Under the pieces are notes generated by a model. It was not told the DNA's origin. It saw only the letters and a program-made list of their open reading frames with translations, and made no database searches. A program made the translations under genes and the position numbers. From positions 56,479,702-56,543,701 of the forward strand of contig OZ020307.1 of assembly GCA_963971305.1 (NCBI GenBank): a stretch of 64,000 bases of DNA, written 5' to 3'. This document shows, one piece after another, positions 8,101 through 48,199 of this stretch (positions are counted from its first letter, which is position 1; every line of letters begins with the position of its first letter). The DNA comes from Arcuatula senhousia (taxonomy: Eukaryota > Mollusca > Bivalvia > Mytilida > Mytilidae).

Positions 8101-8139
8101 TGCAAAGATCTCGTTAAATTTTCCGAACGGCTTAAGTCA

Positions 8140-12070: not shown

Positions 12071-12074
12071 ATTT

Positions 12075-12736: not shown

Positions 12737-13300
12737 AGATAAAAAATATTTAAAAAACTACGTTTAACATTTGCCGTAATTGTATTAAATGTTAAAATCT
12801 ATCATTATACTAAAAAAATAAATAACTTTATAAGGAGTGAACAAGATGATTACCAAATACGCGTCTCTAGCTTTTTTCGGTGTGAATCCTATATTGTTCA
12901 AAACGTTGTGAAGAATCCAATACAAGTAAACGTAACCTAATGGCAGAGTAATAAGGTCGAAGGACGGCAAACAACGTGAAATATAGTAGCCCCGTTATCA
13001 GAAATATATCATAAATTAAAGAAACATAAAGTATTGTGCATATAAGAAAAAAATACAATTTATCACAATGTTTCAAATTAAATGACTATTCTAAGAAAGA
13101 AACCATTAAATCAACAATGTTTATAAAAAAAAACTACAATGTTTACTTTGAGAAGTCAATGTTCTTAGCACCTCCTATAAACAGACCAATTATGAAGACC
13201 AGTACAAAAATATTATCATTAAAAAAGATTATTTTGTGCGGTATTATAGATTTTACACCGTCTTTACTTTTAGTTTAACGAAGCTCTAATTTCTATTCAG

Positions 13301-14454
13301 ATCTGGTGCTACCGTTGTTGGTCTGTACACTCACAGTGCTGTTCTTTGTATCCATAACTGACCGCAGCAAATCTTTTGATCTAACTATTATCAGTGGACG
13401 TTTACGGTCTATATATAGTAATGTCAAATACCAACGAAACGTTAGCCTGTTAATACCAAAACCTAGGCCAGCAACAACGTTAGGATCTTCTATTATCAGG
13501 CCAAAGTCATCTTTTCCAGGAACGTTAAAACCCACGACCATCGTGCCAATGTCATCAACAATAAACATGAAAACAAAAACCACATCGAAAACTATATCTA
13601 CAACAACGCAATACATTAAAAATAATACTAGAAACTACTATTTATGTCCAGGCTTTCTGGGAGGCTTGGGTAATCAACTTTTCGTATATGCCACCCATTT
13701 TGGTGCCGCTATGGCAAAAAATATGACGTTAATGATAAATTCGAAAGCAGAGGTTAGTCATATTTTTTATTTAAAAACCCATGTTTCTATTCGAGATGAT
13801 ACGGGTATATGTAGAGGCGCTCTTGTAAGAGGGGATAGTTTGGACTGTGGTTTTGATGCAAACCTTTTCAAGTTCAATAGCACGTGTAATATACGTTTAG
13901 CAACTTACTTACAAAGTTGGAAATATTTCTATAATTATAGTGACCAGTTGCGAAGAGACTTCACGTTTAAAGAACACATTCAAAAAGCAGCAAATACAAC
14001 CCTAAATGGCATACTTGCTGGACTACACATATCACGAAATTTTACTACATTGATTGGTGTCCATATTCGTAGGGGTAACATGGTAAATCATTCATTCGGT
14101 TACGATGTCGCTACTCCGGGATACCTGAATCAAGCAGTGCAATACTTTAAAAACAAGTATAACAATACACTTTTCATAGTCTCTACTCAAGATATACCAT
14201 GGACACAAACTCACATGCCAAAAAATATAAGTGTACAATATATTGATAGTTCAAAAAGGGAGGTAATCGTTGCAACGCTTGCGTCATGTGATCACACAAT
14301 ATCAACAGTCGGGTCTTTTGGTTGGTGGATTGGTTGGCTTACCGGAGGGGAAGTGACGTATTATAAATGGCCGGCTAAAGAAGGATCGGAACTAAGAACC
14401 AAATATAGTAAAGATTATTCAGATTTTTTCTATCCGGGATGGCAAGGGTTTTAG
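13301..14454 (+). CDS. GT11 alpha-1,2-fucosyltransferase-like, main coding exon (copy A)
   Basis: Predicted Golgi type II enzyme that would transfer fucose from GDP-fucose in alpha-1,2 linkage to galactose-type acceptors. The exon follows an acceptor (TTCTATTCAG|AT) and runs to TAG. The frame is open upstream to the acceptor, no usable ATG exists before residue 82, and splice phase demands one base from an upstream exon, so the start codon lies on an exon I could not find. Counting from the GTG at 13,306: hydrophobic anchor about 1-18, Ser/Thr/Pro-rich stem to about 110, then the GT11 landmarks GGLGNQLF (119-126), HIRRGN (253-258; family usual HxRRGD) and CDHTISTVGSFGWW (328-341). About ten N-glycosylation sequons. 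Oddity: the family-typical LFQYA is LFVYA here, while copy B keeps Q. Donor specificity and linkage are inferred from family. Confidence 0.88.
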
Positions 14455-15424
14455 CATTCCTTGCTATGGGAGTTTTACCAAGTCTTTCTACATGCATCAA
14501 GATCGTGCCTTAGTTTGTTTCAGGTTGACTGAGACAATTTAACTATTTTCGAATACGAGTTTGGTATCTGGATTATCAAAACAATGAGATCTATCAACAT
14601 AAATCAAACATGTAAATAGTAAACCGGTTGCACGAATTTCTTCATAAGAGTGTGTGTATATGTGTGTGTGTGTGTGTCTGTTGATGTTTTATGCCCTTTA
14701 CCGACGCAACTGGGTCATGTAGGGCAGTCAGTTTTCATGGAACCGGATTACCCGGAGGAAACTATCGATCTTGGGCAGGTAACTGACAACCTAATCACAT
14801 ACAGCTGGGAAAGTCCATATTTTTGTAATTACAAACGGGACTCGAACACCATCTGAGAGGTTATTGGCTAGTTATCAACAGTGGCGGATCCAGAAGTGGG
14901 CACAGGGGACAAGAGCCCCCCCCCACTTGACCTCTTCAAAAATAAAATTAGGCCTATAAGTACATGATTTTTATCCACCATTGTCTTATCCAAACATAAA
15001 ACAATCAACACAGATTGTTTACATCCTGTCCTTCTGTTTATCAACTAATGTATGGCTTAATTGTTACCAGATGTGTTTTTTAACAGGTATATGTAATCTG
15101 TTTTTGTGTTTGATACCTGATGATTTGCATATTTTAACTTTTAACACGTACATGTATATCTGAGGTTCATGTTTACAGATGTATTCTTCATAAAGAATAA
15201 AATGAAAATTAATAAATTATTTGTTAGATGAGTGCAGCGGTGGCACAATAATATTTTCAAACTACCGAGTAGGCATAGAGGATGCACCTGTGCTCTTAAT
15301 TTCATAAACCTCTCGTTTCAGAAACATTTTTGTCAATCATAGATGCCCACATTGGTACGTCACGTATTGTAAAGTGAATGCAATAAGAACTTGTCGTGAC
15401 AAACCCAAATAATCCATGAGTACT
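14455..15424. other. Downstream flank of fucosyltransferase A
   Basis: Collinear with 58,603 onward in block B. It holds a (TG)n microsatellite at 14,650-14,690 and a 'cagtggcggatccag' motif at 14,880 followed by a C-run, which resembles a DNA-transposon terminus seen in many invertebrates. The empty site of the block B element (59,231-61,369) falls at about 15,036. No gene seen. Confidence 0.5.
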
Positions 15425-15517
15425 AAAACTTTATCGCAAAAAAGAAGAAAACCACCATAAATAATTCGATTATTTGAAAATCATATGCAGTTGCTCTGAT
15501 ATAATTAACACTCACGG
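15425..15517 (+). repeat. Direct repeat, left copy, flanking an inserted exon
   Basis: 93 bp from 'aaaactttatcgc' to 'acactcacgg', repeated at 15,877-15,971. Block B has this sequence once (about 62,000-62,095), so the duplication accompanied insertion of the 358-bp segment between the copies. Confidence 0.85.
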
Positions 15518-15875
15518 TTCAGCCATTTTCAGCCACTGTAGAAATAATTCATATTGTTTTATTTTCTGCTGCCATGTAAAATATACATAACTTATGAAAA
15601 AAAGCAAAAGTGATATTATGTAATTTGTATATGTTTAAAAGAATATAAGTCTTAATATTTTTTTACCTTTGCAGCCATTTTTAGCCACTGTAGGCATAAT
15701 TCATAATGGAACAAACGTTTCCATGCTCGACAGATATTTGTAGGGTCGGTGAACAGTTCTGCGAAACGGATTCCATGAGATGTCGATATTGTTATGAGTT
15801 TAAAGAAAATTGTTATGATGCAGCACATTTTATCTATAACTGTTCACAGTTTTTTTTGGGTAAGATTTAAATATT
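15518..15875 (+). pseudogene. Extra copy of cysteine-rich receptor exon 1 (orphan exon)
   Basis: Collinear without indels with 17,813-18,170 (both 358 bp), including acceptor (CCTTTGCAG), ATG at 15,706, the 154-nt coding part (15,706-15,859) and the GTAAG donor. One change stands out: the last cysteine codon of the CRD (TGT at 18,148-18,150) is TTT here, giving Phe at residue 50. Block B lacks this copy. Either an orphan exon or an alternative first coding exon spliced to 18,673; the lost cysteine would break the conserved CxxxC end of the domain. Confidence 0.8.
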
Positions 15876-15876
15876 C

Positions 15877-15971
15877 AAAACTTTATCGCAAAAAGAAGAA
15901 AAAAACAACCATAAATAATTCGATTATTTGAAAATTATATGCAGTTGCTCTGATATAATTAACACTCACGG
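15877..15971 (+). repeat. Direct repeat, right copy
   Basis: 95-bp partner of 15,425-15,517, differing by a 2-bp length change in a poly-A and a few substitutions. The following bases ('acgatggtttggtgt') continue as in block B. Confidence 0.85.
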
Positions 15972-17700
15972 ACGATGGTTTGGTGTAAAAAAACCTATGG
16001 CACAGATAATATATATACTAAAAACTACCGAATTCGGAACAAAGGTTGAATTTATATAACGTATAAATACTAAAAGAAAGTTACTAAATATAGATTTGTT
16101 AATGTGAAAATTTCCATTTACAATTTTTTGCACATAAGGATTTACTAAAGGTAATATATATTATATAGATAAGGGTATATTTCACTGATCTGTTAAAAAT
16201 AATATGCATTTGCACCCGTGTTTACGAAGAGGTAAGATTAACGTTCTTTTGTTCTCTACATGCCTACATGTACCTATTCTCAGAAATATGATGAGAATCT
16301 TATAAAATTTAAATATTGTAATACGTATAACAAAGTAGCAGCGGACATACTTTAAAATATGTCTCAAAATCAGTTTTGGGAATGAGATGTACATATTATG
16401 CATTCACTGCCGTTAAATCACTGCACATTGTCTGCTCATTTGTTTAAATCATCACAAAAGTTTGAAGAAAACTGCTTTTAATAGATATGGACACACGTAC
16501 AATTTAAATATGAAATGAATTCTAAATCCGAATTATAAGAAAAAACTTAATAAGTTTCTAAATCTTTTCGTAACTCGGACTCTAATTATAACTCGAACTC
16601 TAATTTGGACTCGAATTGTACAACTCGATCCTTGTTATAAAAATCAACACTTCAAGTTAGCTAAAATTTTAATTCGTGCATTACCCACTTCACTTATTGT
16701 ATTGTCCTATGCATTTTCCTTCTTTGGTTGAATAATATAATAAGTTCTACGGTCGTCCAGTTCAGCTGTATTAGGCACTGTCTTTGCCCTTTGCCACTGG
16801 CCAACACAACAGCTATAGGTTTAATAGCTAGGCCAATACAGAAATCATCACGAAATAAAATGGATATTAAAAAACGTAAACAGTGCAGTTTACCTGTTGT
16901 TATACAACGTAACTATTTATTTTTGTAAAGGTATTTAAAGATATGGGAAAATAAAGTTACAAAAATAAAATTTGTCAATTCATCGACGTTGTACAAAGGA
17001 AAAAATATTAAGAAGTGTCCACTATCACCAAAACGGGAAGTTTTGTATAATTAACAATTTTTGTTATATTTTGTAACATTTTGCGTACATCAATCTTATA
17101 ATATGTACTTTTGAAAAGCATTACCATTCAAGTTTCACAATATCATGTATGTATAAGCTTCATGCAAGTAAAATGACATCTGGATACGTTTCTTCGACCA
17201 CGTTTGCCTCTCGGTGAATGATTTCAGTCATGGACGTCAAAAACGTTTATAATTCTCTTTGTTTAATTGTATCCTTTCAACTTGCTTCAAAAGGGGGGTT
17301 TACTGTTCCGTGATTTGATACAATGTATTCCAGGAACACGTTGTTAAAATAACTAACAAGCCTTACTAGTAATTCACACATGAACTTGTTTGATTTGGTT
17401 AGATAAGCATAAAAGAAACATAAAATGATGATAAAATGAGGAAGCAATGCCAATCCCGGATGATTTTTTACTGTTACCGATAAAGGAAGATTGGCTAGGA
17501 CAGAGCGATTCAGTCACTTGCATGGGGTCATGCGGGTCTTGAATTCTCTTATTGAAACATGCATGCAAAAGGGGTCTAAACGTGCGAGAAGCGTGACGTT
17601 TGTGTTCAAAACACGGTTTTACAGACTGACGAACTCAGCATTTATTGTATCAGGACTACTTATTAAACCACACGGAGCCCACACAAAGTTGTTTGACACA
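15972..17700. other. Upstream region of the cysteine-rich receptor gene
   Basis: Collinear with 62,095-63,725 in block B. 16,556-16,630 is a degenerate (ACTCG)-type tract. The segment 17,490-17,700 is unusually well kept between the blocks and GC-richer than its surroundings, so it could hold a promoter or 5' UTR exon. No coding exon recognised. Confidence 0.4.
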
Positions 17701-17707
17701 TATTTTT

Positions 17708-18000
17708 TTCTGCTGCCATGAAAAATATACATAACTTATGAAAAAAAGCAAAAGTAATATTACGTAATTTGTATCTGTTTAAAAGAATATAATTCTTAAT
17801 ATTTTTTAACTTTTCAGCCATTTTCAGCCACTGTAGAAATAATTCATATTGTTTTATTTTCTGCTGCCATGTAAAATATACATAACTTATGAAAAAAAGC
17901 AAAAGTGATATTATGTAATTTGTATATGTTTAAAAGAATATAAGTCTTAATATTTTTTTACCTTTGCAGCCATTTTTAGCCACTGTAGGCATAATTCATA
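17708..18000 (+). repeat. Tandem duplication of the exon 1 acceptor region
   Basis: About 155 bp beginning 'ttctgctgccatg(a/t)aaaatat' occurs twice in tandem (17,708 and 17,863), each ending in a splice-acceptor-like 'ttcag/gcagCCATTTT(C/T)AGCC'. Block B has one unit (63,730-63,877). The second unit leads into the ATG at 18,001. Confidence 0.75.
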
Positions 18001-20403
18001 ATGGAACAAACGTTTCCATGCTCGACAGATATTTGTAGGGTCGGTGAACAGTTCTGCGAAACGGATTCCATGAGATGTCGATATTGTTATGAGTTTAAAG
18101 AAAATTGTTATGATGCAGCACATTTTATCTATAACTGTTCACAGTTTTGTTTGGGTAAGATTTAAATATTGAAACAACTGTTACTGTGTATTAAATCATT
18201 GAACTATATTTTGAATTGAGCAAAATAAAAAAAGGAACAGTAGATTGAGTAACACGTCATGAAATTGACTTTTATGGTCAAAGCAGAATTACCCCTCTCC
18301 CACTTATGAAGAAAAAAAGAAATGATTAAAATCTGCCGACCGGTTTAAAATCAATATGCACATCTGCAATGTTTGTTGTGTATAGCGATTATCTAGATTA
18401 ATCAATCCTACATGTCCAAGACAGACTAACCAAGGCATAAAAACACCAAAATAAATGATTATGGTCTGTACTTGGTATGGGCATTTTAAAAAAAATGTTT
18501 GGTTGAACCCGTTGCGATACACAGTCTGTTACCAGTAGTAGTAGACCTTAGTTAAAAGAAAACCTCCCAACATTTTTTTCATCACAATAACCATTGTTTG
18601 TATCATTGGAACTTGATCTGTTCATACACTTTCATTTTAATTGGTTTAAATGATTTTTTCTTATCTTTTCAGAGCTTGTAAAGAAAAATGTGACAGAGGT
18701 TATTGTGAACAAATGCAAAGAAAAAGGTAATGGTTTTAACATTAAATCTATAAAGTGAAGAAAAAAAACAACCAAAGTTATATGATAAAAAGTTGTTAAT
18801 TATCTAAGGCTACAAATGGCCATGCATTAAAATATGGATGTTTAAGACAGATGTTGTTAAATGAAGAAAACTAAACAGAAACTATGCAACAAAAATAATG
18901 AATGAATGCTATTTTTGATTTATTTGGCCTGCGAACTATTGTGATTCAAGTGCTTGAAATAATTGAAAATTTGAATGTGCTAAAGCAAGCAGGAACTGCT
19001 TACTCTTCCGGGGCACCTACGTTTACTCTCCTTGCGGCCTGAGTTCGCATTACCGTTCAGTTGATTTTGTGTTTTTTGTATTTTTTTCTTTCTTCGGTTC
19101 GTTCTTGTCTCCTGGTATTGTCGTTGCCCATTCAGACATTTTACACACGAATGCCCCATTGGTGCATCTTTGCTTGCTTCATGCATACATGTATACAAAT
19201 TAAAAAAAATAAGCAAGTCGTCGTATACGCTGTAGCAACACTTTTTAGGTTTAAACATTAAAATGATAAAATTTGGATTGGAAACAAAGGAACAGTAAAG
19301 ACCATTAAAAGGGGAGATGTAATAAGGAGCGGAAAAGTGAAGCCTATTAAGTTCACTAAGTGGCGATTCCTAAAGCTTTTTTACGTGTAACACGCATGCC
19401 ACTTCACACACGTTGACCAATATTGTCGGCAATCAGGCGTTCTGCTTCATAATCCTGACTACCACCGTGGCCGGGAACCACTGTTTTAAGCGCCCAGGAA
19501 TCGCAACTTGGTCGTTCTATCGGCTGGGCACTTACCCGGCGTCAGAATATTAAGACCTTTTGGTGCCTTTTACGGCAATCTAGGTTCTGCAGTGGTCATT
19601 TTTGTCACCGGGCACCGAATATGACCATCACGGAATAAAGTTGTATTGACACTTGGAACTCTGTATTATAAAAGAACAGTGTACAATTAAATAGTGTAAT
19701 GTTACACAAAATATTATTTGTTTATCCTTTTACATTTTGTACTTTTAGATGCAGCTTTTTATTTGAATGAAAATCACCACTTTCTCATAGAAGGGTTCAT
19801 GACTTTGATCATCATAGTTTTTATATCCTACTGTGTCTGTCCATGGCCAAGATTTCTATTGAATAACTTTTTCCAGAAAATCTTCGGAAATAAAGCCACC
19901 ATTGGTTTGAATGCCTCTGTGAAATATTCTGCTAATGGCGATGTTGATCTCCCTGTAAAAGAACCTTTAGTTAATGGACCGGAAGTTAAAGTCGGTAAGA
20001 TATGAATAAAGAAAGTCAAGTAGTGTACTAAAATTCTATATTCCTTGTTTAAAAAATAATTTCCAATATGAATTGTTTAGTTGGATTATTTCTTAACATT
20101 GTTAAAGTACACAGAACATCATTAATTTTAACTTTACTTTACACTGTAATACCTTTATACTCCTTTAGCATTAGAAAAAATAAACATGTACATGTAGCCT
20201 ATGTTTTACTATTAGTAATTATGTGATGCTATATTGTAGAAGTGGATTCTCAAGAGGCAGAAGATGACCGTTTGAATAATCTTCACAAGAACCAATATAA
20301 TAATTGTGGGTTTATGCAGCATAATCAGATGTCAACCGCCACAGATGACCAGGGCATGGTAGTTCCAAGTGGGTACGGCCATAGAGGCTCAGAACCAACG
20401 TGA
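18001..20403 (+). CDS. Cysteine-rich single-pass receptor, BCMA/TACI-like (TNFR superfamily candidate), four coding exons
   Basis: Coding exons 18,001-18,154, 18,673-18,726, 19,749-19,994 and 20,240-20,403 (TGA) join with GT/AG borders and matching phases into about 205 residues. Exon 1 has no signal peptide and an in-frame TAA just before the ATG. It carries one cysteine-rich module: C7, C12, C19, C26, C29, C36, C46 and C50, ending CRYC(x6)C(x9)CSQFC, like the CxxC...CxRYC end of BCMA/TACI domains. Exon 2 is a 17-residue stalk. Exon 3 gives the transmembrane segment (about 86-100, LIIIVFISYCVC) and a basic juxtamembrane region. Exon 4 is an acidic/polar tail containing DSQE, which does not fit the strict TRAF consensus. 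Size and signal-less type III topology match BCMA and BAFF-R. Exons and topology are read from sequence; receptor identity is inference. Intron 2 hosts repeats. Confidence 0.72.
18410..18530 (-). repeat. Interspersed repeat (TTGGTACAGG family)
   Basis: Intronic copy of a repeat also seen at 34,200-34,330, 35,545-35,675, 40,280-40,460 and 41,350-41,460: 'tggtctgtacttggtatggg', 'tttggttgaacccgttgcgata'. Diverged, no coding content. Confidence 0.6.
18985..19180 (+). repeat. SINE-like interspersed repeat, intronic copy
   Basis: Starts AGCAGGAACTGCTTACTCTTC and ends 'atgccccattggtgcatct'. It is a diverged plus-strand copy of the 204-bp family within intron 2 of the receptor gene. Confidence 0.7.
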
Positions 20404-23430: not shown

Positions 23431-23995
23431 ATAGCACACCGTCGTGGTGCTTCAAGTCAAGGTAGCGAGGCAGGTCCAGTAAAGAAGGACGAAACAAAAT
23501 CTTTCAAAAACTAACATCTGCATTCACCTGCGAGTCAGAAATCCGATATTTGTCTATGAGCCCCATGATGTCTTCCATAGATTTTTCAAGGGATACAACT
23601 AACGAGGAGAAGCATTACCTTGTGTTAACGATTTGTGTTTAAACCTAGGAAATTGATATTAGTCCCTCAAACTCTTAAACTCTTAAAAACTGTTGATATG
23701 TGGAAGTTTTTCTGTTAATCCCACCTTATATGATAATGCCATGTTGTGATTCATCAACAAACGGTGAATTTTTTCCGCATTTTCAATATATATGGAGTTA
23801 ATTGCAACTGTCGTTGTTTTTTGTTCCCGCCAATTTATTGTCTTGGACTTTTTTCCGCCATTTCTAGTGCCGTTGTAAATTGCGTTAAGTCCCTATATTA
23901 GAAAATATTCTATAACTATTAATAATATTGTGATGTCTACTACATCAATTATCATTATTTTAGGCATTCATTTAGAAACATTTATTATGTTTTTG
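23431..23995. other. Intergenic stretch
   Basis: 23,425-23,620 is GC-richer ('gtcgtggtgcttcaagtcaa', 'gagccccatgatgtcttcca') but no reading frame or known motif was recognised. Confidence 0.35.
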
Positions 23996-26767: not shown

Positions 26768-26815
26768 GCTCTTCATATTCATACAGTGTTTGGCATTTTC
26801 AATATTTTTGGTAGA

Positions 26816-26859
26816 GCGCCTCTGATGAGTCTTGAATAGACGAAACGCGCGTCAGGCGT
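26816..26859 (+). ncRNA. Type I hammerhead ribozyme, monomer 1
   Basis: Stem I pairs GCGCCT (26,816-26,821) with AGGCGT (26,854-26,859). Core CTGATGA (26,822-26,828). Stem II is GTC/GAC (26,829-26,831 with 26,839-26,841) closed by a 7-nt TTGAATA loop. Core GAAA (26,842-26,845). Stem III is only A-U and C-G around a GCGC loop. The cleavage triplet GTC ends at 26,853, so the RNA should be cut between 26,853 and 26,854. All invariant core positions are present. Hammerheads with such a short stem III are known from Penelope-like elements and animal satellites and may act as dimers. Confidence 0.93.
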
Positions 26860-27173
26860 AGCAAAATTTATTGTCTGGAACTTTGTTGTCATTTGTATTT
26901 CGAACACACGTGAAGGTTAGCACTGCTGGTGGAGTTTAAATTCCCCGAGGTTAGCCCGCTCCGGCACCAACACTTTTGAGTTGGAGAATACATCAAAGCT
27001 TTAAATTATCCGTCTAAATTTCAAAATTGTTTAAACCCTAAGGTTCTTCCTACCCCAGACATAGGTTGAATATCTTAGTAATAATTTGGTTCCCCAATTT
27101 GGTATTTTTGGTTATACTGTTCTATGCTCTTCATATTCATACAGTGTTTAGCATTTTCAATATTTTTGGTAGA

Positions 27174-27217
27174 GCGCCTCTGATGAGTCTTGAATAGACG
27201 AAACGCGCGTCAGGCGT
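27174..27217 (+). ncRNA. Hammerhead ribozyme, monomer 2
   Basis: Identical to the monomer 1 motif; predicted cut after 27,211. Confidence 0.92.
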
Positions 27218-27531
27218 AGCAAAATTTATTGTCTGGAACTTTGTTGTCATTTGTATTTCGAACACACGTGAAGGTTAGCACTGCTGGTGGAGTTTAAATT
27301 CCCCGAGGTTAGCCCGCTCCGGCACCAACACTTTTGAGTTGGAGAATACATCAAAGCTTTAAATTATCCGTCTAAATTTCAAAATTGTTTAAACCCTAAG
27401 GTTCTTCCTACCCCAGACATAGGTTGAATATCCTAGTAATAATTTGGTTCCCCAATTTGGTATTTTTGGTTATACTGTTCTATGCTCTTCATATTCATAC
27501 AGTGTTTGGCATTTTCAATATTTTTGGTAGA

Positions 27532-27575
27532 GCGCCTCTGATGAGTCTTGAATAGACGAAACGCGCGTCAGGCGT
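27532..27575 (+). ncRNA. Hammerhead ribozyme, monomer 3
   Basis: Intact core; predicted cut after 27,569. Confidence 0.92.
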
Positions 27576-27889
27576 AGCAAAATTTATTGTCTGGAACTTT
27601 GTTGTCATTTGTATTTCGAACACACGTGAAGGTTAGCACTGCTGGTGGAGTTTAAATTCCCCGAGGTTAGCCCGCTCCGGCACCAACACTTTTGAGTTGG
27701 AGAATACATCAAAGCTTTAAATTTTCCGTCTAAATTTCAAAATTGTTTAAACCCTAAGGTTCTTCCTACCCCAGACATAAGTTGAATATCTTAGTAATAA
27801 TTTGGTTCCCCAATTTGGTATTTTTGGTTATACTGTTCTATGCTCTTCATATTCATACAGTGTTTGGCATTTTCAATATTTTTGGTAGA

Positions 27890-27933
27890 GCGCCTCTGAT
27901 GAGTCTTGAATAGACGAAACGCGCGTCAGGCGT
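27890..27933 (+). ncRNA. Hammerhead ribozyme, monomer 4
   Basis: Intact core; predicted cut after 27,927. First monomer of the first 2,151-bp hexamer. Confidence 0.92.
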
Positions 27934-28248
27934 AGCAAAATTTATTGTCTGGAACTTTGTTGTCATTTGTATTTGGAACACACGTGAAGGTTAGCACTGC
28001 TGGTGGAGTTTAAATTCCCCGAGGTTAGCCCGCTCCGGCACCAACACTTTTGAGTTGGAGAATACATCAAAGCTTTAAATTTTCCGTCTAAATTTCAAAA
28101 TTGTTTAAACCCTAAGGTTCTTCCTACCCCAGACATAGGTTGAATATCTTAGTAATAATTTGGTTCCCCAATTTGGTATTTTTGGTTATACTGTTCTATG
28201 CTCTTCATATTCATACAGTGTTTAGCATTTTCAATATTTTTTGGTAGA

Positions 28249-28292
28249 GCGCCTCTGATGAGTCTTGAATAGACGAAACGTGCGTCAGGCGT
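28249..28292 (+). ncRNA. Hammerhead ribozyme, monomer 5 (stem III loop variant)
   Basis: Loop after GAAAC is GTGC instead of GCGC. Core and paired positions are unchanged, so activity may be kept. Predicted cut after 28,286. Confidence 0.88.
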
Positions 28293-28606
28293 AGCAAAAT
28301 TTATTGTCTGGAACTTTGTTGTCATTTGTATTTCGAACACACGTGAAGGTTAGCACTGCTGGTGGAGTTTAAATTCCCCGAGGTTAGCCCGCTCCGGCAC
28401 CAACACTTTTGAGTTGGAGAATACATCAAAGCTTTAAATTATCCGTCTAAATTTCAAAATTGTTTAAACCCTAAGGTTCTTCCTACCCCAGACATAGGTT
28501 GAATATCCTAGTAATAATTTGGTTCCCCAATTTGGTATTTTTGGTTATACTGTTCTATGCTCTTCATATTCATACAGTGTTTGGCATTTTCAATATTTTT
28601 GGTAGA

Positions 28607-28650
28607 GCGCCTCTGATGAGTCTTGAATAGACGAAACGCGCGTCAGGCGT
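28607..28650 (+). ncRNA. Hammerhead ribozyme, monomer 6
   Basis: Intact core; predicted cut after 28,644. Confidence 0.92.
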
Positions 28651-28964
28651 AGCAAAATTTATTGTCTGGAACTTTGTTGTCATTTGTATTTCGAACACAC
28701 GTGAAGGTTAGCACTGCTGGTGGAGTTTAAATTCCCCGAGGTTAGCCCGCTCCGGCACCAACACTTTTGAGTTGGAGAATACATCAAAGCTTTAAATTTT
28801 CCGTCTAAATTTCAAAATTGTTTAAACCCTAAGGTTCTTCCTACCCCAGACATAAGTTGAATATCCTAGTAATAATTTGGTTCCCCAATTTGGTATTTTT
28901 GGTTATACTGTTCTATGCTCTTCATATTCATACAGTGTTTGGCATTTTCAATATTTTTGGTAGA

Positions 28965-29008
28965 GCGCCTCTGATGAGTCTTGAATAGACGAAACGCGCG
29001 TCAGGCGT
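28965..29008 (+). ncRNA. Hammerhead ribozyme, monomer 7
   Basis: Intact core; predicted cut after 29,002. This monomer carries the extra AT (atatattc) near its far end. Confidence 0.92.
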
Positions 29009-29324
29009 AGCAAAATTTATTGTCTGGAACTTTGTTGTCATTTGTATTTGGAACACACGTGAAGGTTAGCACTGCTGGTGGAGTTTAAATTCCCCGAGGT
29101 TAGCCCGCTCCGGCACCAACACTTTTGAGTTGGAGAATACATCAAAGCTTTGAATTTTCCGTCTAAATTTCAAAATTGTTTAAACCCTAAGGTTCTTCCT
29201 ACCCCAGACATAGGTTGAATATCTTAGTAATAATTTGGTTCCCCAATTTGGTATTTTTGGTTATACTGTTCTATGCTCTTCATATATTCATACAGTGTTT
29301 GGCATTTTCAATATTTTTGGTAGA

Positions 29325-29368
29325 GCGCCTCTGATGAGTCTTGAATAGACGAAACGCGCGTCAGGCGT
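29325..29368 (+). ncRNA. Hammerhead ribozyme, monomer 8
   Basis: Intact core; predicted cut after 29,362. Monomer body has 'caacagttttg' in place of 'caacacttttg'. Confidence 0.92.
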
Positions 29369-29682
29369 AGCAAAATTTATTGTCTGGAACTTTGTTGTCA
29401 TTTGTATTTCGAACACACGTGAAGGTTAGCACTGCTGGTGGAGTTTAAATTCCCCGAGGTTAGCCCGCTCCGGCACCAACAGTTTTGAGTTGGAGAATAC
29501 ATCAAAGCTTTAAATTATCCGTCTAAATTTCAAAATTGTTTAAACCCTAAGGTTCTTCCTACCCCAGACATAGGTTGAATATCCTAGTAATAATTTGGTT
29601 CCCCAATTTGGTATTTTTGGTTATACTGTTCTATGCTCTTCATATTCATACAGTGTTTGGCATTTTCAATATTTTTGGTAGA

Positions 29683-29726
29683 GCGCCTCTGATGAGTCTT
29701 GAATAGACGAAACGCGCGTCAGGCGT
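29683..29726 (+). ncRNA. Hammerhead ribozyme, monomer 9
   Basis: Intact core; predicted cut after 29,720. Confidence 0.92.
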
Positions 29727-30040
29727 AGCAAAATTTATTGTCTGGAACTTTGTTGTCATTTGTATTTCGAACACACGTGAAGGTTAGCACTGCTGGTGGA
29801 GTTTAAATTCCCCGAGGTTAGCCCGCTCCGGCACCAACACTTTTGAGTTGGAGAATACATCAAAGCTTTAAATTTTCCGTCTAAATTTCAAAATTGTTTA
29901 AACCCTAAGGTTCTTCCTACCCCAGACATAAGTTGAATATCCTAGTAATAATTTGGTTCCCCAATTTGGTATTTTTGGTTATACTGTTCTATGCTCTTCA
30001 TATTCATACAGTGTTTGGCATTTTCAATATTTTTGGTAGA

Positions 30041-30084
30041 GCGCCTCTGATGAGTCTTGAATAGACGAAACGCGCGTCAGGCGT
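30041..30084 (+). ncRNA. Hammerhead ribozyme, monomer 10
   Basis: Intact core; predicted cut after 30,078. Monomer nearly identical to monomer 7. Confidence 0.92.
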
Positions 30085-30400
30085 AGCAAAATTTATTGTC
30101 TGGAACTTTGTTGTCATTTGTATTTGGAACACACGTGAAGGTTAGCACTGCTGGTGGAGTTTAAATTCCCCGAGGTTAGCCCGCTCCGGCACCAACACTT
30201 TTGAGTTGGAGAATACATCAAAGCTTTGAATTTTCCGTCTAAATTTCAAAATTGTTTAAACCCTAAGGTTCTTCCTACCCCAGACATAGGTTGAATATCT
30301 TAGTAATAATTTGGTTCCCCAATTTGGTATTTTTGGTTATACTGTTCTATGCTCTTCATATATTCATACAGTGTTTGGCATTTTCAATATTTTTGGTAGA

Positions 30401-30444
30401 GCGCCTCTGATGAGTCTTGAATAGACGAAACGCGCGTCAGGCGT
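30401..30444 (+). ncRNA. Hammerhead ribozyme, monomer 11
   Basis: Intact core; predicted cut after 30,438. Type A monomer followed directly by a type C monomer, so a B unit is missing here. Confidence 0.92.
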
Positions 30445-30758
30445 AGCAAAATTTATTGTCTGGAACTTTGTTGTCATTTGTATTTCGAACACACGTGAAG
30501 GTTAGCACTGCTGGTGGAGTTTAAATTCCCCGAGGTTAGCCCGCTCCGGCACCAACAGTTTTGAGTTGGAGAATACATCAAAGCTTTAAATTATCCGTCT
30601 AAATTTCAAAATTGTTTAAACCCTAAGGTTCTTCCTACCCCAGACATAGGTTGAATATCCTAGTAATAATTTGGTTCCCCAATTTGGTATTTTTGGTTAT
30701 ACTGTTCTATGCTCTTCATATTCATACAGTGTTTGGCATTTTCAATATTTTTGGTAGA

Positions 30759-30802
30759 GCGCCTCTGATGAGTCTTGAATAGACGAAACGCGCGTCAGGC
30801 GT
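30759..30802 (+). ncRNA. Hammerhead ribozyme, monomer 12
   Basis: Intact core; predicted cut after 30,796. First monomer of the second hexamer. Confidence 0.92.
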
Positions 30803-31117
30803 AGCAAAATTTATTGTCTGGAACTTTGTTGTCATTTGTATTTGGAACACACGTGAAGGTTAGCACTGCTGGTGGAGTTTAAATTCCCCGAGGTTAGCCC
30901 GCTCCGGCACCAACACTTTTGAGTTGGAGAATACATCAAAGCTTTAAATTTTCCGTCTAAATTTCAAAATTGTTTAAACCCTAAGGTTCTTCCTACCCCA
31001 GACATAGGTTGAATATCTTAGTAATAATTTGGTTCCCCAATTTGGTATTTTTGGTTATACTGTTCTATGCTCTTCATATTCATACAGTGTTTAGCATTTT
31101 CAATATTTTTTGGTAGA

Positions 31118-31161
31118 GCGCCTCTGATGAGTCTTGAATAGACGAAACGCGCGTCAGGCGT
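31118..31161 (+). ncRNA. Hammerhead ribozyme, monomer 13
   Basis: Intact core with the consensus GCGC loop, unlike its hexamer counterpart monomer 5; predicted cut after 31,155. Confidence 0.92.
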
Positions 31162-31475
31162 AGCAAAATTTATTGTCTGGAACTTTGTTGTCATTTGTAT
31201 TTCGAACACACGTGAAGGTTAGCACTGCTGGTGGAGTTTAAATTCCCCGAGGTTAGCCCGCTCCGGCACCAACACTTTTGAGTTGGAGAATACATCAAAG
31301 CTTTAAATTATCCGTCTAAATTTCAAAATTGTTTAAACCCTAAGGTTCTTCCTACCCCAGACATAGGTTGAATATCCTAGTAATAATTTGGTTCCCCAAT
31401 TTGGTATTTTTGGTTATACTGTTCTATGCTCTTCATATTCATACAGTGTTTGGCATTTTCAATATTTTTTGTAGA

Positions 31476-31519
31476 GCGCCTCTGATGAGTCTTGAATAGA
31501 CGAAACGCGCGTCAGGCGT
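31476..31519 (+). ncRNA. Hammerhead ribozyme, monomer 14
   Basis: Intact core; predicted cut after 31,513. One G-to-T change lies just upstream of stem I. Confidence 0.92.
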
Positions 31520-31833
31520 AGCAAAATTTATTGTCTGGAACTTTGTTGTCATTTGTATTTCGAACACACGTGAAGGTTAGCACTGCTGGTGGAGTTTAAA
31601 TTCCCCGAGGTTAGCCCGCTCCGGCACCAACACTTTTGAGTTGGAGAATACATCAAAGCTTTAAATTTTCCGTCTAAATTTCAAAATTGTTTAAACCCTA
31701 AGGTTCTTCCTACCCCAGACATAAGTTGAATATCTTAGTAATAATTTGGTTCCCCAATTTGGTATTTTTGGTTATACTGTTCTATGCTCTTCATATTCAT
31801 ACAGTGTTTGGCATTTTCAATATTTTTGGTAGA

Positions 31834-31877
31834 GCGCCTCTGATGAGTCTTGAATAGACGAAACGCGCGTCAGGCGT
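31834..31877 (+). ncRNA. Hammerhead ribozyme, monomer 15
   Basis: Intact core; predicted cut after 31,871. Confidence 0.92.
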
Positions 31878-32193
31878 AGCAAAATTTATTGTCTGGAACT
31901 TTGTTGTCATTTGTATTTGGAACACACGTGAAGGTTAGCACTGCTGGTGGAGTTTAAATTCCCCGAGGTTAGCCCGCTCCGGCACCAACACTTTTGAGTT
32001 GGAGAATACATCAAAGCTTTAAATTTTCCGTCTAAATTTCAAAATTGTTTAAACCCTAAGGTTCTTCCTACCCCAGACATAGGTTGAATATCTTAGTAAT
32101 AATTTGGTTCCCCAATTTGGTATTTTTGGTTATACTGTTCTATGCTCTTCATATATTCATACAGTGTTTGGCATTTTCAATATTTTTGGTAGA

Positions 32194-32237
32194 GCGCCTC
32201 TGATGAGTCTTGAATAGACGAAACGCGCGTCAGGCGT
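32194..32237 (+). ncRNA. Hammerhead ribozyme, monomer 16
   Basis: Intact core; predicted cut after 32,231. Confidence 0.92.
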
Positions 32238-32551
32238 AGCAAAATTTATTGTCTGGAACTTTGTTGTCATTTGTATTTCGAACACACGTGAAGGTTAGCA
32301 CTGCTGGTGGAGTTTAAATTCCCCGAGGTTAGCCCGCTCCGGCACCAACAGTTTTGAGTTGGAGAATACATCAAAGCTTTAAATTATCCGTCTAAATTTC
32401 AAAATTGTTTAAACCCTAAGGTTCTTCCTACCCCAGACATAGGTTGAATATCCTAGTAATAATTTGGTTCCCCAATTTGGTATTTTTGGTTATACTGTTC
32501 TATGCTCTTCATATTCATACAGTGTTTGGCATTTTCAATATTTTTGGTAGA

Positions 32552-32595
32552 GCGCCTCTGATGAGTCTTGAATAGTCGAAACGCGCGTCAGGCGT
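32552..32595 (+). ncRNA. Hammerhead ribozyme, monomer 17 (stem II mutated)
   Basis: The 3' strand of stem II is GTC instead of GAC (gaatagtcgaaac), leaving a T-T mismatch in a stem of only three pairs. The core is intact, but this unit should cleave poorly or not at all. Confidence 0.8.
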
Positions 32596-32909
32596 AGCAA
32601 AATTTATTGTCTGGAACTTTGTTGTCATTTGTATTTCGAACACACGTGAAGGTTAGCACTGCTGGTGGAGTTTAAATTCCCCGAGGTTAGCCCGCTCCGG
32701 CACCAACACTTTTGAGTTGGAGAATACATCAAAGCTTTAAATTTTCCGTCTAAATTTCAAAATTGTTTAAACCCTAAGGTTCTTCCTACCCCAGACATAA
32801 GTTGAATATCTTAGTAATAATTTGGTTCCCCAATTTGGTATTTTTGGTTATACTGTTCTATGCTCTTCATATTCATACAGTGTTTGGCATTTTCAATATT
32901 TTTGGTAGA

Positions 32910-32953
32910 GCGCCTCTGATGAGTCTTGAATAGACGAAACGCGCGTCAGGCGT
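32910..32953 (+). ncRNA. Hammerhead ribozyme, monomer 18 (last, partial monomer)
   Basis: Intact core; predicted cut after 32,947. Only 47 bases of monomer sequence follow before the array ends at 32,994. Confidence 0.92.
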
Positions 32954-32994
32954 AGCAAAATTTATTGTCTGGAACTTTGTTGTCATTTGTATTT

Positions 32995-33279
32995 CTATAA
33001 ATCAACAAAAAATCTTTTAATTTTTTTTGTCTCTTAAATAAAATTTATTCGTTTAACACAAATAAACTTTTTTTAGTGTGCGAACTCTGATAACAAAAAC
33101 CAAGATGTTATCTTCTAAAACAAAAAAAGTTTTCCATATGGTTTAATGCTAAATATTTCACCAATTTTAATAATACCTAAAATGGTGTGATTATCTGACG
33201 GAACATCCAGGTGTTGGGCCCACCTGAACATAATTGAAAGGACTAACAATAGGAGATCAGATTACCAATTAGCTCCACA
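32995..33279. other. Spacer after the satellite
   Basis: AT-rich, no gene, RNA or repeat recognised. Confidence 0.4.
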
Positions 33280-37439: not shown

Positions 37440-37936
37440 TCGAAATTATGTTTAAATTTCACAATTAATCAAACCCAAAGGTACTTTCTACTCCAGACAT
37501 AGATTGAAGATCTAAGTTATAATTCATTACCCATTTCGGTATATTTGGTCTTATTTTTCTATGCTCTTAATAATTATTTAGTGTTCGTTTTTTTTTCTAA
37601 TATTTTAAGTAGAAAGACCTTATTGAGTCTTGAATAGACTAAATGCGCGTCAGGCGTAGCCAAATTTAATGCCTAGATCTTTGTTGTTATCTTAATTTCT
37701 TATGCTTGTGAAGGAAAGCGCTGCTGGAAGAGTTTTAGTTCCCAGAGGATAAACAGCTCCGGAACCCAAACCGTTGTGTTGGAGAACACACCAAAGCTTT
37801 GATTCAGTTAAGTTTCAAAATTGTTCTTCCTTTCCCAGACATAGGTTGATAATTTCGTCATAAATGGGTTCCCCGTTTCAATATTTCTAGTTTTATTGTT
37901 CATTGCTTTTTACAATTATTGAGTGTTTGACTTCTT
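37440..37936 (+). repeat. Eroded satellite monomers with dead hammerhead
   Basis: 'ctccagacatagattgaaga', 'tttcggtatatttggtctta' and 'gagtcttgaatagact' follow the order of the 358-bp monomer. In the ribozyme the CTGATGAG core reads TTATTGAG and GAAAC reads TAAAT (about 37,618-37,650), so it should be inactive. Confidence 0.8.
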
Positions 37937-38321
37937 TAAGGTTAATGGGGACAGGTGTCTTGTGACCAAGCACATCTAAATATGCAAAGAAAATGCTAGC
38001 ATATCAATAAATACATAACAAAAATTAAATGAGTTAATCAAACAAATGTTCAACATATGATAATATTTTTCTTAACAGAGATGTGACTATTAACTTAATA
38101 AATCATTGTTTTGAAAATATCACGGGAGGTAATCAAAATACAATGAATTCTACAGGCAGATTGAAAACGAAGTTGGTGACCCCCCTATTTTCTCACTCAT
38201 ATATCAAAGTTTGCTCATTAATATTAATTCTGATCTAATAAAATCAAATTTGTAATGTAAGATTTTTTCTTGAGCAGTGATTTTATGCATTTTATATGTC
38301 CTTTCCTTTAATAGTCATTGT

Positions 38322-38369
38322 AATACAAATGACAACAAAGTTCCAGACAATAAATTTTGCTACGCCTGA
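38322..38369 (-). repeat. Isolated inverted satellite fragment
   Basis: About 48 bp identical, on the minus strand, to the monomer part that follows the ribozyme cleavage site: from TCAGGCGTAGC to GTCATTTGTATT. Its far end coincides within a base or two with the point where the main array stops (32,994). Confidence 0.85.
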
Positions 38370-38413
38370 AATTTAGTCAAACTTTGAACCCTTAAATTGG
38401 AAAAATAAGCTTG

Positions 38414-38595
38414 GTCATACCCGTAGCTAGAATTTTTCAACAGGGGGTTCTAAATTGTGAAGAGGGGGTTCGATTTCCCAAATTTCTCTTACTTTTATAG
38501 TGCTTAACCGATTTTTCACCTGATTTTTCCCTATTTTTTTGTCCGAAGGGTGGGGGTTCGTCCGAACCCGTCGACCCCCCCCTGGCTACGAGTAT
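38414..38595. mobile_element. Small MITE with GTAGC(T/C)AG inverted ends
   Basis: Left end CATACCCGTAGCTAG and right end CTGGCTACGAGTATG are inverted complements with two mismatches. G-rich and C-rich runs lie just inside ('cagggggttc', 'cgacccccccc'). Confidence 0.7.
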
Positions 38596-38719
38596 GTTGG
38601 TGACCTATCTTTATTTTAGTTTTATATGAAAGATATCAACCTTATTTGATATTTAAGCCAATAAAATTAGATTTTTATTGAGCAGATATTTTCAGAGTCA
38701 GGTGTCCTTATTAACCTTT

Positions 38720-39015
38720 AATGTTTTTGATAGAGTGCCTTTGATGAGTCTTGAATTGATGAAGTGCGCGCATGATGGTAATGTCCGGAACTTTGCTTTT
38801 ATTAAATTTCTAACACCAATGAATGTTACCCCTATCGTGCACTAACACTTTTGTGGTTGATAACACCTAAAACTATAAATCTGGTTAAGGTTGATGATCT
38901 AATCTATAATTTGTTTTCCCCATTTCGGTATTTTTGTTTTTGTTGTTTTAGGCTCAGGCGTTGCAAAATTAAATGTCTAGAACTATGTTGTTATATCAAT
39001 TTCTTACACCCTTAA
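38720..39015 (+). repeat. Eroded satellite monomers, continued
   Basis: 'gatagagtgcctttgatgag' then 'tcttgaattgatgaagtgcg' (about 38,733-38,770) is a hammerhead with CTGATGAG reading TTGATGAG and GAAAC destroyed. A second trace is 'caggcgttgcaaaatt' at 38,956. Not expected to cleave. Confidence 0.75.
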
Positions 39016-39019: not shown

Positions 39020-40157
39020 TCCTTTTAAGGGCCATGTTAGCTATTTTCCTCACTTGGCGTACGTTGTCTGTCCGTAAACGTTTTCAAACGTTAACTGCTC
39101 TGACAACAAAAATTCAATTGCAACTTAACTTAGAACAAGTGTCAATGAAGTTCTTTAGGTACATATAACTGATGTGGGAATTTTTGATTCGTTGTAAAAC
39201 ATGAACGCCGTGGCTTGAAATTAAACATAGGGGTAAATTGCAGTTTTTGTAAATAACTATTAATTAATATCATATATATCATTTTTTTTGCAAAAATTAA
39301 AGCAATCAGCAGCCTAAGATCTACCTGCCCTGAAATTTGAGAGAAGATCCAACAACACATATAGAGTATTGCTCTTATTGTAGAGATTTTGCAAATTCTG
39401 TATTTATTAAGCTCAATATCTTAAAAACTATAACTCCCATTGAAACCACACTTGGTATGGTGGTTGATTACTATTAAGTGTACATAACTGATATTGGGAT
39501 ATTTATGGCTTGAAAAAGAAAAAAAAATGGTAAATTGCAGTGTTTTGCTAATAACCTCTTAAAAATGTGAAAGATTTTTACTACATGATAGAACATAAAA
39601 GTGATCACCATTTTAAGATCCACCTTCCCTGAAATTTGGAAGAAGATCCCAAAATGGTTTAACGACCAATAAAAAAATCCCCATATCAGGTGACCTGAAT
39701 AAATATCTTGATGTGGTTACCAATATGCTATTTAAATTTCATCAAGATATTTATTCAGGTCACCTGATATGGGGATTTTTTTATTGGTCGTTAAACATGG
39801 TCAACACGGCTAAAGATATTAAACAGGTAGATAAATTGCAGTTTGTTTTTTGCTGATAACTTAAAAACGATGACATTCTTTAAATATTTGATTGACAACT
39901 ACGTATTCAGCGGCCTCTAGATATACGTACCCTTTAATTTTGAAGACTCGTCTTGGAGTTGTCATCCTTTTCTTTGGTTTTTCTTAAATGTGCAGTTATG
40001 AGGCTAAATTGCTTGAGATTTAGAAAAGGTTGAAAAATCTTAATATTCAAGTAAATGCATATTGTTATGCACATTAAGATCTATAAAATTGGAAACAGAG
40101 TCAAAGAATTTGTAGGTCAGTCAGATGGGCGATTCAGGCTTCTCGGAGCCTCTTGTT
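39020..40157 (+). repeat. Bivalve-type multi-unit repeat, further copy
   Basis: Opens 'tagctattttcctcacttgg' / 'cgtctgtccgtaaacg', has internal units ('gatccaccttccctgaaatt', 'agatctacctgccctgaaat') and closes 'cgattcaggcttctcggagc' + 'ctcttgtt', the family closing motif of 3,735-5,176. A perfect hairpin sits inside. The minus-strand 72-codon frame is not called as a gene. Confidence 0.65.
39657..39796. repeat. Perfect 57-bp inverted repeat (hairpin)
   Basis: 39,657-39,713 and 39,740-39,796 are exact reverse complements over 57 bases with a 26-base spacer. Outer bases GTTTAACGACC / GGTCGTTAAAC, inner TATCTTGATG / CATCAAGATA. Perfect pairing implies recent origin (template switch or foldback insertion) or maintained pairing. 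Confidence 0.95.
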
Positions 40158-42364: not shown

Positions 42365-43130
42365 TGATGGCGGGCGGCTAGGCGGGCGTGCGGGCGGGCG
42401 GGCGTCAACAATTGGTTTCCAGACCATAACTCAAAAAGTTGTAAACCGATTTTAATGAAACTTTAAGATATTGCTACATGTCATAAGAGGAGGAACCTTA
42501 TTGATTTTGGGGTAAATCCGTTCAAGGTCAAGGTCACAGCAACAGAAAATCCTTAGAAAATTTCTTGAATAAGTGGTTTCCGGACCATAACTCAAAAAGT
42601 TTTCAACCGATGTTATTGAAAGGTTAGGATATTGGTACATACTATAAGAGGAGGAACCCTATTGATTTTAGGGTAAATCCGTTCAAGGTCAAGGTCACAG
42701 TGACAGAAAAGGGTTAGAAAATTTCTTGAATTAGTGGTTTCCAGACCATAACTCAAAAAGTTTTCAACTGATTTTAATGAAACTTAAGGATAATATTACA
42801 TACCATAAGAAGAGGAATCCTATTGATTTTGGGGTAAATCCGTTCAAGGTCAAGGTCACAGCGACAGAAAAACATTTGAAATTTACTTAAAAAAGCAGTT
42901 TCTGGTCAATTACTCAAAAAGTTGTCAACAGATTTTAATGAGACTTTGTAATGTTGTTACCAATTATAAGAGGAGAAATCCTAATGATTTTTGGTTAATT
43001 TTGTTCAAGGATCAAGGGCAGAACGGCAGAAAAACATGGTTTCAGGACAATAACTCGAAAAGTTCTCAATCAATTTTATTAAATTTTTGGCATAATGTTG
43101 CAAACTACATTGTATATGAACGGTTGAATT
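42365..43130 (+). repeat. About 160-bp tandem repeats preceded by a GGCG run
   Basis: After a (GGCG)n tract at 42,370-42,405, five imperfect units marked by 'ccataactcaaaaagtt' (about 42,423, 42,585, 42,744, 42,906, 43,046) each contain 'ttcaaggtcaaggtcacag'. They decay toward the right. A common repeat type in bivalves, lying in intron 2 of the receptor pseudogene. Open frames here are repeat shadows. Confidence 0.75.
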
Positions 43131-46735: not shown

Positions 46736-46831
46736 GTGTTCCTCATTACACCGCCACAATCACTTACATTTTTATTATATGACCTCTATAAATGTGCCAA
46801 CAGTATGTGTGATCATTCTCATTACTGCGTG

Positions 46832-47470
46832 ATGTCTTATTTAGATGAAACATTGAGCAACATATCCGAGTCTAACTTTTCACCCGATTATTCTATACTT
46901 TCTGACCAGTTTTTAGAAGATAACCAATTCACTGCCACAACATTAGAACATTCAACTCTTACAAGTGTCCATTCAAGTGTCCATTCAAATGTAAATTCTG
47001 ACTCCGAGGATGACCATTCTTTAGAACCCCCAGACTTAACCCCACAGTTTGGCCCCACATTCGATCAACCTCAACTAGAAAATTATAGATCATATACTTC
47101 TAGAGTTCCTAAACACACTGTCCCAGTTATGGAGAAACTAGTTGTATGCCGAAAATTTGGTGGGTATCTACACAAGAATGAATCTGTTTCTCTTCATGGG
47201 TTTGAATCATATGCTACACTTCACAATATTCTAGATTCCAAACGCAAAAAAGCAGCGTTCCACCTGCACCTAACGGGCCCCACTGTCACTTGGTTTAACT
47301 CGTTATCATCAGGACAGAAAAAGTCATGGAAACATTTTGTTACAATATTCAAAGTAAAATATGTAAATTTAGATTGGAATAACCCGACTGTTTTGATGGA
47401 AAATGAAGTTTTTAATTTAAAGTTGTCACATAGTCAATCCCTCGAAGACCTTTTATTGTCAGTTAGTTGA
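46832..47470 (+). pseudogene. gag: Ty3/gypsy-type gag (N-terminal part)
   Basis: The open frame extends back to 46,736, but the first ATG (MSYLDETLSN) is at 46,832. A Ser/Asp-rich leader is followed by a retrotransposon gag core (AAFHLHLTGPTVTWFNSL ... SWKHFVTIFKVKY), the usual capsid-like helix pattern with WF and W...F...F. It ends early at TGA 47,468; the continuing gag is in other frames, so the element is dead. No nearby LTR was found. Confidence 0.7.
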
Positions 47471-48130
47471 AAAAGCCTAATTGTTGTCTAAACCAGATTA
47501 CGAAGTCATGTGCAAATTTATCAAAGGACTTCCAAAAGCTAGCATTTTTTGTAAGGGCTGGTTCTCATATGACAAGTTCTAGTGCACTCTCTGCTGCAAA
47601 AATGGGTGAGGCATGTGGGTATCGCGTTTATGACGATATAACTGTTTCCGCTGTTGCAAAACCTTATGAACACAGATCAGTGGGGACCGACTAATCAGAG
47701 CTGTCGGAATTACAAAGTAAAGTCAATCATTTAACTGATTTGGTTGAAAAATTGACAGCTTCTCAGAGTACATCATCCCGTCGTCCGCAAACAAGTCGAT
47801 TTAATGACAATAGTCGAAACACGAGAAAGAACTTTTCAAAGCAAGACAGACGAGAACAAAATTCAAACGTGCCATAAAACGCACCGTTTACATGTTATAA
47901 ATGCCAGGGTAAGAATCACATCCAACGAAATTGTATGTGAACGGCCAGCGACAAGAAAATTCGAGCAATCAGTGTCAGCTTTGTTCTCAGAACGGACATG
48001 AAGCTCTCCAGTGCGTTAAGTTGGGAAACATTCCGAACCCGAGGGACGTAGAGCACGCCCCCTCGGGCGGACAGAATTAAGTGCCAGAAAACGTAGTCCA
48101 TCTCCGAGTCGGCATAGAAATAACAAATTA
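47471..48130 (+). pseudogene. Gag remainder with two CCHC zinc knuckles, frame-broken
   Basis: TGT TAT AAA TGC ... at 47,893 encodes C-x2-C-x4-H-x4-C, ended by a TGA two codons later. A second knuckle, C-x2-C-x4-H-x4-C from 47,973, is in a different frame. The nucleic-acid-binding end of gag is thus recognisable but split by a stop and a shift. Confidence 0.7.
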
Positions 48131-48199
48131 CGCACAAATTCTATTTCAAATCATTTTTTTTCGTCTGATAAAACCTCTGACACTGAGCCTGAAAATAAT

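Follow-up and report, generated by a model that had tools for sequence, protein, structure and literature searches.

A 64-kb window of the genome of the mussel Arcuatula senhousia (64,000 nucleotides; GenBank assembly GCA_963971305.1, contig OZ020307.1, positions 56,479,702 to 56,543,701 of the forward strand) contains a tandem head-to-tail array of a 358-bp repeat on the + strand (26768..32995 in window coordinates), in which every unit carries a hammerhead ribozyme. The eighteen motifs are confirmed as type I hammerheads, all on the + strand. The array is very probably an animal retrozyme of the non-LTR type (without long terminal repeats), and its RNA would be transcribed, cut and circularized as the literature on its relatives leads one to expect. 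The class is already described in mussel, and the array is a further example of animal retrozyme repeats. What is new here is a three-unit pattern of variants within the array, an older decayed element, a 48-base fragment that spans, to within 2 bases on either side, the distance from the predicted cut to the 3' end of the array, and a hypothesis about the breakpoints of insertion.

The array has a period of 358, 17.4 copies and 98% matches, and comprises 17 full units of 358-360 bp each and a last partial unit of 134 bases. Phases within the unit are defined by the left end of the array, with phase 1 at GCTCTTC (26768). The hammerhead is predicted to cut after phase 86, between GCGCGTC and AGGCGT; phase 134 is the last of the array. 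The tail beyond the last predicted cut is 48 bases long and corresponds to phases 87-134 (32948..32995, +; derived positions). The hammerhead of unit 1 (26816..26859, +) scores 36.5 bits with the Rfam model Hammerhead_1 (RF00163; gathering threshold 34). Fifteen motifs of 44 bases each are identical to it, score 36.5 bits each and start on the + strand at 27174, 27532, 27890, 28607, 28965, 29325, 29683, 30041, 30401, 30759, 31118, 31476, 31834, 32194, and 32910; the motif letters are hence identical in 16/18 units, each with an E of 1.6e-05. The two deviating motifs are in unit 5 (28249..28292, +; 33.8 bits, slightly under gathering), where a C>T change in the GCGC loop of stem III disrupts the palindrome ACGCGCGT as well, and in unit 17 (32552..32595, +; 27.6 bits), where GAC>GTC produces a mismatch in stem II. 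Given this mismatch, the ribozyme of unit 17 is expected to cut poorly. CTGATGA...GAAAC is present in 18/18 units. The core pattern CTGANGAN{6,24}GAAAC occurs 18 times in the window, 18/18 inside the array, where shuffles predict 0.52 occurrences. No hammerhead was found outside the array in the window at E up to 0.5, and all 18 matches lie on the + strand. A first-pass annotation of the DNA had claimed eighteen hammerheads in a 358-bp array on the + strand, with sixteen exact units, one loop change and one stem II mismatch, and these counts were borne out, the covariance model finding the motifs where they had been placed. The left end that it gave for the array also holds, but the right end is 32995 rather than 32994.

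In the common type of unit, stem I is GCGCCU/AGGCGU (six pairs including a G.U), stem II is GUC/GAC (three pairs with the 7-base loop UUGAAUA), and stem III consists of two pairs, A-U and C-G, with a GCGC loop. The same layout, with cleavage after GTC, had been recognized in the first-pass annotation. Because ACGCGCGU is palindromic, two ribozymes might pair through a common stem III of eight pairs, in the manner described for amphibian hammerheads (PMC7229834); the computed energy of this duplex is -14.7 kcal/mol in the common type versus -10.2 in unit 5. The array is low in G+C (0.387 at 28001-30000 and 0.393 at 30001-32000, i.e., below 50%), and no open reading frame (ORF) of at least 110 amino acids was found in it, nor a protein gene in the 358-bp unit.

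The closest described system is that of Mytilus galloprovincialis, in which about 5000 type I hammerheads have been reported, usually in repeats of ~350-390 bp (Cervera and de la Pena, 2020; PMC7229834). According to the available text of the same source, a cloned repeat is cleaved at ~0.1 per min in vitro, RtcB circularizes ~30% of the monomer from the construct Mg353, and circles occur in all tissues tested, most highly in gonad and mantle (circular RNA accessions MN642551-MN642576). The present array shares with these non-LTR retrozymes the type I hammerhead, the repeat length of ~350-390 bp, the low G+C and the mussel host; the comparison is one of descriptions, and neither a long array that has a three-unit pattern nor insertion ends are among the features described in the available text of PMC7229834. 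More generally, the metazoan non-LTR retrozyme traits found here are the type I hammerhead, tandem repeats within 150-450 bp, a G+C below 50% and the lack of a protein gene. As to another trait, the dispersal of copies in the genome, two further insertions were seen within the same 64 kb. The retrozyme-like reading of the first-pass annotation is therefore supported by unit length, G+C, tandem form and type I topology (PMC7229834). The class is known in mussel (PMC7229834); the three-unit pattern and the older relatives at 37443-39015 go beyond that annotation. Hammerhead satellites of newts and salamanders likewise have tandem units of ~330-350 bp and type I hammerheads with a weak stem III whose palindromic loop permits dimeric action (PMC7229834), but their hosts are amphibians, and the 358-nt circle of the present unit is no stabler than its shuffles. 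Plant LTR retrozymes share hammerhead-bounded repeats without protein; they differ in having type III hammerheads, LTRs, a primer binding site (PBS), a polypurine tract (PPT), 4-bp duplications and a spacing of 600-1000 bp (PMC7229834, PMC7761336).

Sequence differences between the units are ordered along the array. With variant types X, Y, and Z assigned by eye, units 3-11 read XYZXYZXYZ, an X is missing ahead of unit 12, and units 12-17 read YZXYZX; units 1 and 2 are both Z-like. On average, units three apart (lag 3) have an identity of 0.9907 and units eight apart (lag 8) one of 0.9926, versus 0.9856 for all pairs, and random unit orders reached the observed values in 223/20000 cases at lag 3 and 132/20000 at lag 8 (six lags, uncorrected). 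Lag 5 is weaker (3621/20000), and lags 1, 2, and 4 lie under the mean identity. Since the variants recur periodically, growth by the copying of three-unit blocks is indicated, which suggests that the array expanded by such blocks and not by independent insertions of monomers. Block copying would most simply occur at the DNA level, by unequal exchange; the alternative is a trimeric RNA.

A three-unit higher-order pattern is also what a plain satellite would display, that is, a retrozyme-derived unit which is untranscribed, has spread only by unequal exchange, and carries passenger ribozymes that are alike because the array is young. The failure to find a target-site duplication at the array fits such a satellite, and so does a ribozyme without a deficit of variants: 2 of the 17 variable columns lie in the hammerhead, versus 2.09 expected, and as the count matches the expectation, the array gives no evidence of ribozyme constraint, which weighs against an active retrozyme. 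On the other hand, 16/18 ribozymes are intact, the family has moved beyond the array, as is evident within ~6 kb from a short fragment of identical sequence and from an older insertion, and the relatives in mussel are transcribed (PMC7229834). We regard the plain satellite as distinctly improbable.

With the array masked, a family profile gave five matches in the window at E up to 1, which amount to two further insertions. The profile was built partly from the older of the two, and matches to those parts follow by construction; fragment C (see below) and the tail and left end of the old element were left out of the profile. The left part of the old element (37443..37939, +) runs from phase 236 to 358, through one full unit and into the start of a third unit, with a broken hammerhead core. 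Its right part (38717..39015, +) runs from phase 31 onward to phase 4 of the last unit, jumps to phase 85/87, i.e., to the cut site, and ends at about phase 141-146. For the left part, the alignments have 74% identity over 472 positions, and 72% over 386; over its main stretch the old element is 74% identical. The hammerhead cores are altered at both surviving places, the second by a 10-base deletion across the cut site. The two parts are separated by an interrupting element of 777 bases (37940..38716, no strand assigned), which splits the old retrozyme and contains fragment C. Its inverted arms, of 26 bases each, are 77% complementary, and TTTAA stands on either side of it.

Three candidate observations were discarded. 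The left copy (37443-37948) might be taken for an insertion of its own ending at phase 44, but it continues as the right copy across the inverted repeats 37935-37960/38696-38721, and phase 44 is for this reason not counted as a 3' end. At 23777-23866 there is a weak match (E 0.038 and 0.46), which was set aside, as the family profile fails to recover it at E 1; it ended near phase 130 and would have favored a common 3' end. The decay of CpG was dropped as an age clock, the observed/expected CpG of the window being 0.91.

Fragment C is a solo fragment (38322..38369, -) of which 48/48 bases are identical to phases 85-132 of the array unit, with TAGTCA on both flanks. Its 5' start at phase 85 is at most 2 bases from the predicted cut, and it stops 2 bases before the 3' end of the array. 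The chance of both ends falling within 2 bases is approximately (5/358)^2 = 2e-4, under uniform breakpoints and for places named post hoc. This one exact match suggests that fragment C may be a DNA copy of an RNA that began at a ribozyme-made 5' end. It could also be filler from break repair, or the end of a longer insertion cut short when reverse transcriptase reached the base of the hammerhead stem, the start at the cut site being a coincidence or a structural stop. A single fragment is compatible with such an origin, the cut does sit at the base of a stable stem, and the TAGTCA repeat at the flanks is weak. Filler or truncation is nevertheless unlikely in our judgment, because both ends lie within 2 bases of independently defined places, and the old element has a junction at the cut site too. 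The latter junction is weak when taken alone: the old element has seven deletions of at least 5 bases, so that one edge would meet the cut site by chance about 1 time in 5 (estimate).

The 3' ends of all three insertions in the window (3/3) are close to one another, at phase 134 in the array, 132 in fragment C and about 141-146 in the old element, which correspond to 48, 46 and ~55-60 bases from the cut. Just downstream of these ends is an AC-rich stretch, GAACACACG, at phases 135-143 (32638..32646, +, in unit 17 as an example). A comparable arrangement has been described for Penelope-like elements. According to Frangieh et al. (2024; PMC11167929, available text), reverse transcription by a Penelope-like enzyme begins at internal sites of its RNA. 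Most starts fall in an AC-rich stem-loop, and a second start (the 'tail') is 30-40 nt away; the starts are downstream of the hammerhead cut and the targets are A+T-rich. By analogy, GAACACACG is proposed as a candidate start region for reverse transcription, and the insertion ends, three in number, resemble the internal start of the Penelope-like element (PMC11167929). The anole element PAc (PMC11167929) has in common with the mussel family the tandem copies and the hammerhead, and the mussel family may also share its fixed 3' end past the cut, AC-rich start and A+T-rich targets; it differs in that the mussel 358-bp unit lacks a reverse transcriptase or endonuclease gene. The coding capacity typical of Penelope-like elements (reverse transcriptase, usually with a GIY-YIG endonuclease) is likewise not seen in the array, given the lack of an ORF of at least 110 amino acids. 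In PMC7229834, Penelope-like elements are called a strong candidate for the mobilizer of retrozymes, without demonstration.

Because the insertions end in a narrow zone 46-60 bases past the cut and beside the AC-rich stretch, a Penelope-like reverse transcriptase is the enzyme that we favor most among the possible mobilizers, though only tentatively and with doubt somewhat outweighing belief. A retrozyme moved by a LINE-type or another reverse transcriptase, with the common 3' ends reflecting a fold or simply where the transcript stops, has several points for it: there are just 3 insertions, the ends are scattered over phases 132-146, the distance from cut to end is unlike that of the one Penelope-like element studied (PMC11167929), and LINEs are left open by PMC7229834 and PMC11722881. 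Yet no poly-A or simple-repeat end occurs at the junctions examined, and the AC-rich stretch at the ends is like a Penelope-like start, which makes another enzyme rather unlikely in our view.

Several observations weigh against a Penelope-type, cleavage-dependent origin of these insertions, and some against an active retrozyme altogether. In PAc, the distance from the cut to the main start of reverse transcription is 85-92 nt by our own arithmetic, versus 46-60 here, and no reads ended at the hammerhead cut, cleavage not being needed in vitro (PMC11167929); for retrozymes, the exact match of fragment C suggests the contrary. At phases 126-152, around the AC-rich stretch, the hairpin has an energy of -0.2 kcal/mol and is thus barely stable. 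The A+T content of the 3' flanks over 40 bases is 85, 75, and 65%, and the third of these is not A+T-rich with respect to the window (67%). Target-site duplications of metazoan non-LTR retrozymes exceed 4 bp when present; none was found at the array, whose flanks share a word of 4 bases at best, the old element has no shared flank word of at least 4 bases, and the 6-base flank repeat of fragment C has to be set against the 4.2% of random intervals that share a word of at least 6 bases. A Pfam scan of 10 frames in the window revealed no Penelope-like gene. In nearest-neighbor folding of the isolated hammerhead, a rival fold is favored by 5.5 kcal/mol, and stem III is absent from the constrained fold; the Rfam consensus hammerhead itself shows a gap of 4.0 under the same comparison, which consequently says little about ribozyme activity. 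The 358-nt circle, with 59% of its bases paired, has a computed stability of -71.3 versus -73.1 +/- 5.1 for 200 shuffles (z +0.34), i.e., no extra stability, whereas published retrozyme circles are 'highly self-paired', a descriptive trait with exceptions (PMC7229834).

A mechanism can be outlined with these reservations. The retrozyme RNA would be transcribed, would cut itself and be circularized, as in the relatives described in the literature, and an enzyme supplied in trans would return it to the genome as a copy. At least one insertion was apparently templated by an RNA whose 5' end the ribozyme had made. After insertion, the array would have been enlarged in three-unit blocks, most simply by unequal DNA exchange. 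For the chain as a whole, from a retrozyme array through a Penelope-like reverse transcriptase in trans and a cut-end template to three-unit growth, arguments for and against are nearly balanced, and we lean slightly to the negative side. As a more general hypothesis, which we hold to be possible rather than probable, mussel retrozymes would carry a Penelope-type start of reverse transcription downstream of the hammerhead, Penelope-like enzymes would mobilize them, and cut 5' ends would be copied as well, so that 'tail' insertions of ~46 bases would be fossils of cleavage that took place in vivo. The mobilizing enzyme of animal retrozymes and the role of hammerhead cutting are left open in the available text of PMC7229834 and PMC11167929. 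If retrozyme fragments across mussel genomes prove to begin at the cut and to end 46-60 bases beyond it, this would constitute genomic evidence of cleavage in the animal and would point to the enzyme; if the breakpoint pattern fails to hold, the locus adds another array to a class already known. In the literature searched, no paper was found that relates the insertion ends of retrozymes to the ribozyme cut or a Penelope-type start, a weak absence because supplements were outside the search.

Relatives of the unit were also looked for elsewhere. The pattern CTGATGAGTC...GACGAAACGCGCGTC gave 0 occurrences in viral contigs and genome contigs, as did the pattern GACGAAACGCGCGTCNGGCGTA, and two looser core patterns gave 9 and at least 120 viral-contig loci. 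When 129 viral-contig loci were compared with the unit, the matches listed covered phases 53-92 only, i.e., the hammerhead, and no relative of the remaining unit was found among them outside the window. These 129 loci, which were chosen by the core pattern and include at least four pairs of near-copies, contain hammerheads of their own. By a simple stem test, 85/129 have at least one complete hammerhead, and 25/129 have two or more on the same strand (eight in L116, five in L117, four each in L027 and L052, and 21 other loci). In L117, the five hammerheads occupy 5/8 junctions between ORFs that were listed mechanically; all have the stem I GGTTAA/TTAACC, and stems II and III vary on both sides. 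The layout gives the impression of a polycistronic RNA that is cleaved into its single genes. At the Rfam gathering threshold no hammerhead was found in L117, L027, L101, or L103. Triple hammerhead arrangements have already been published (PMC3088659).

The window also contains duplications. About 285 bases past the array is an exact tandem duplication (33280-34625/34624-35969; 100% over 1346 bases), either a recent event or an assembly artefact. The array itself lies between the two copies of a collinear segmental duplication (5259-18174 versus 50839-64000, with blocks of ~84-93% identity), each of which contains a fucosyltransferase (GT11) frame with a Pfam Glyco_transf_11 match (13306-14454 and 57454-58602). 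For the frame at 13306-14454, the best named relatives among the matches listed are from M. edulis (46%), M. trossulus (47%), and M. galloprovincialis (49%) over 86% of the query, and these matches also include an M. coruscus fragment with 72% over 35%. Smaller direct duplications are situated at 59003-60811 (905 bases in tandem, 99.6%) and at 15518-15879/17813-18174 (362 bases, 99.4%). A Ty3/gypsy-like element (46736-50732) has gag, protease-like, reverse transcriptase and RNase H matches over several frames, of which the protease and one RNase H match are under the Pfam cut-off; the best named relative of its reverse transcriptase is from M. coruscus (66% over 94%). The Mytilus relatives of the fucosyltransferase and of this reverse transcriptase point to a mytilid host. 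A long near-perfect inverted repeat at 39671-39783 gives 47.7 of 100 bits for MIR6019 and 38.3 of 67.5 for mir-95, far below gathering, and is probably a small inverted-repeat element. A second short tandem array is present at 42413-43037, with a period of 161, 3.9 copies and 83% matches.

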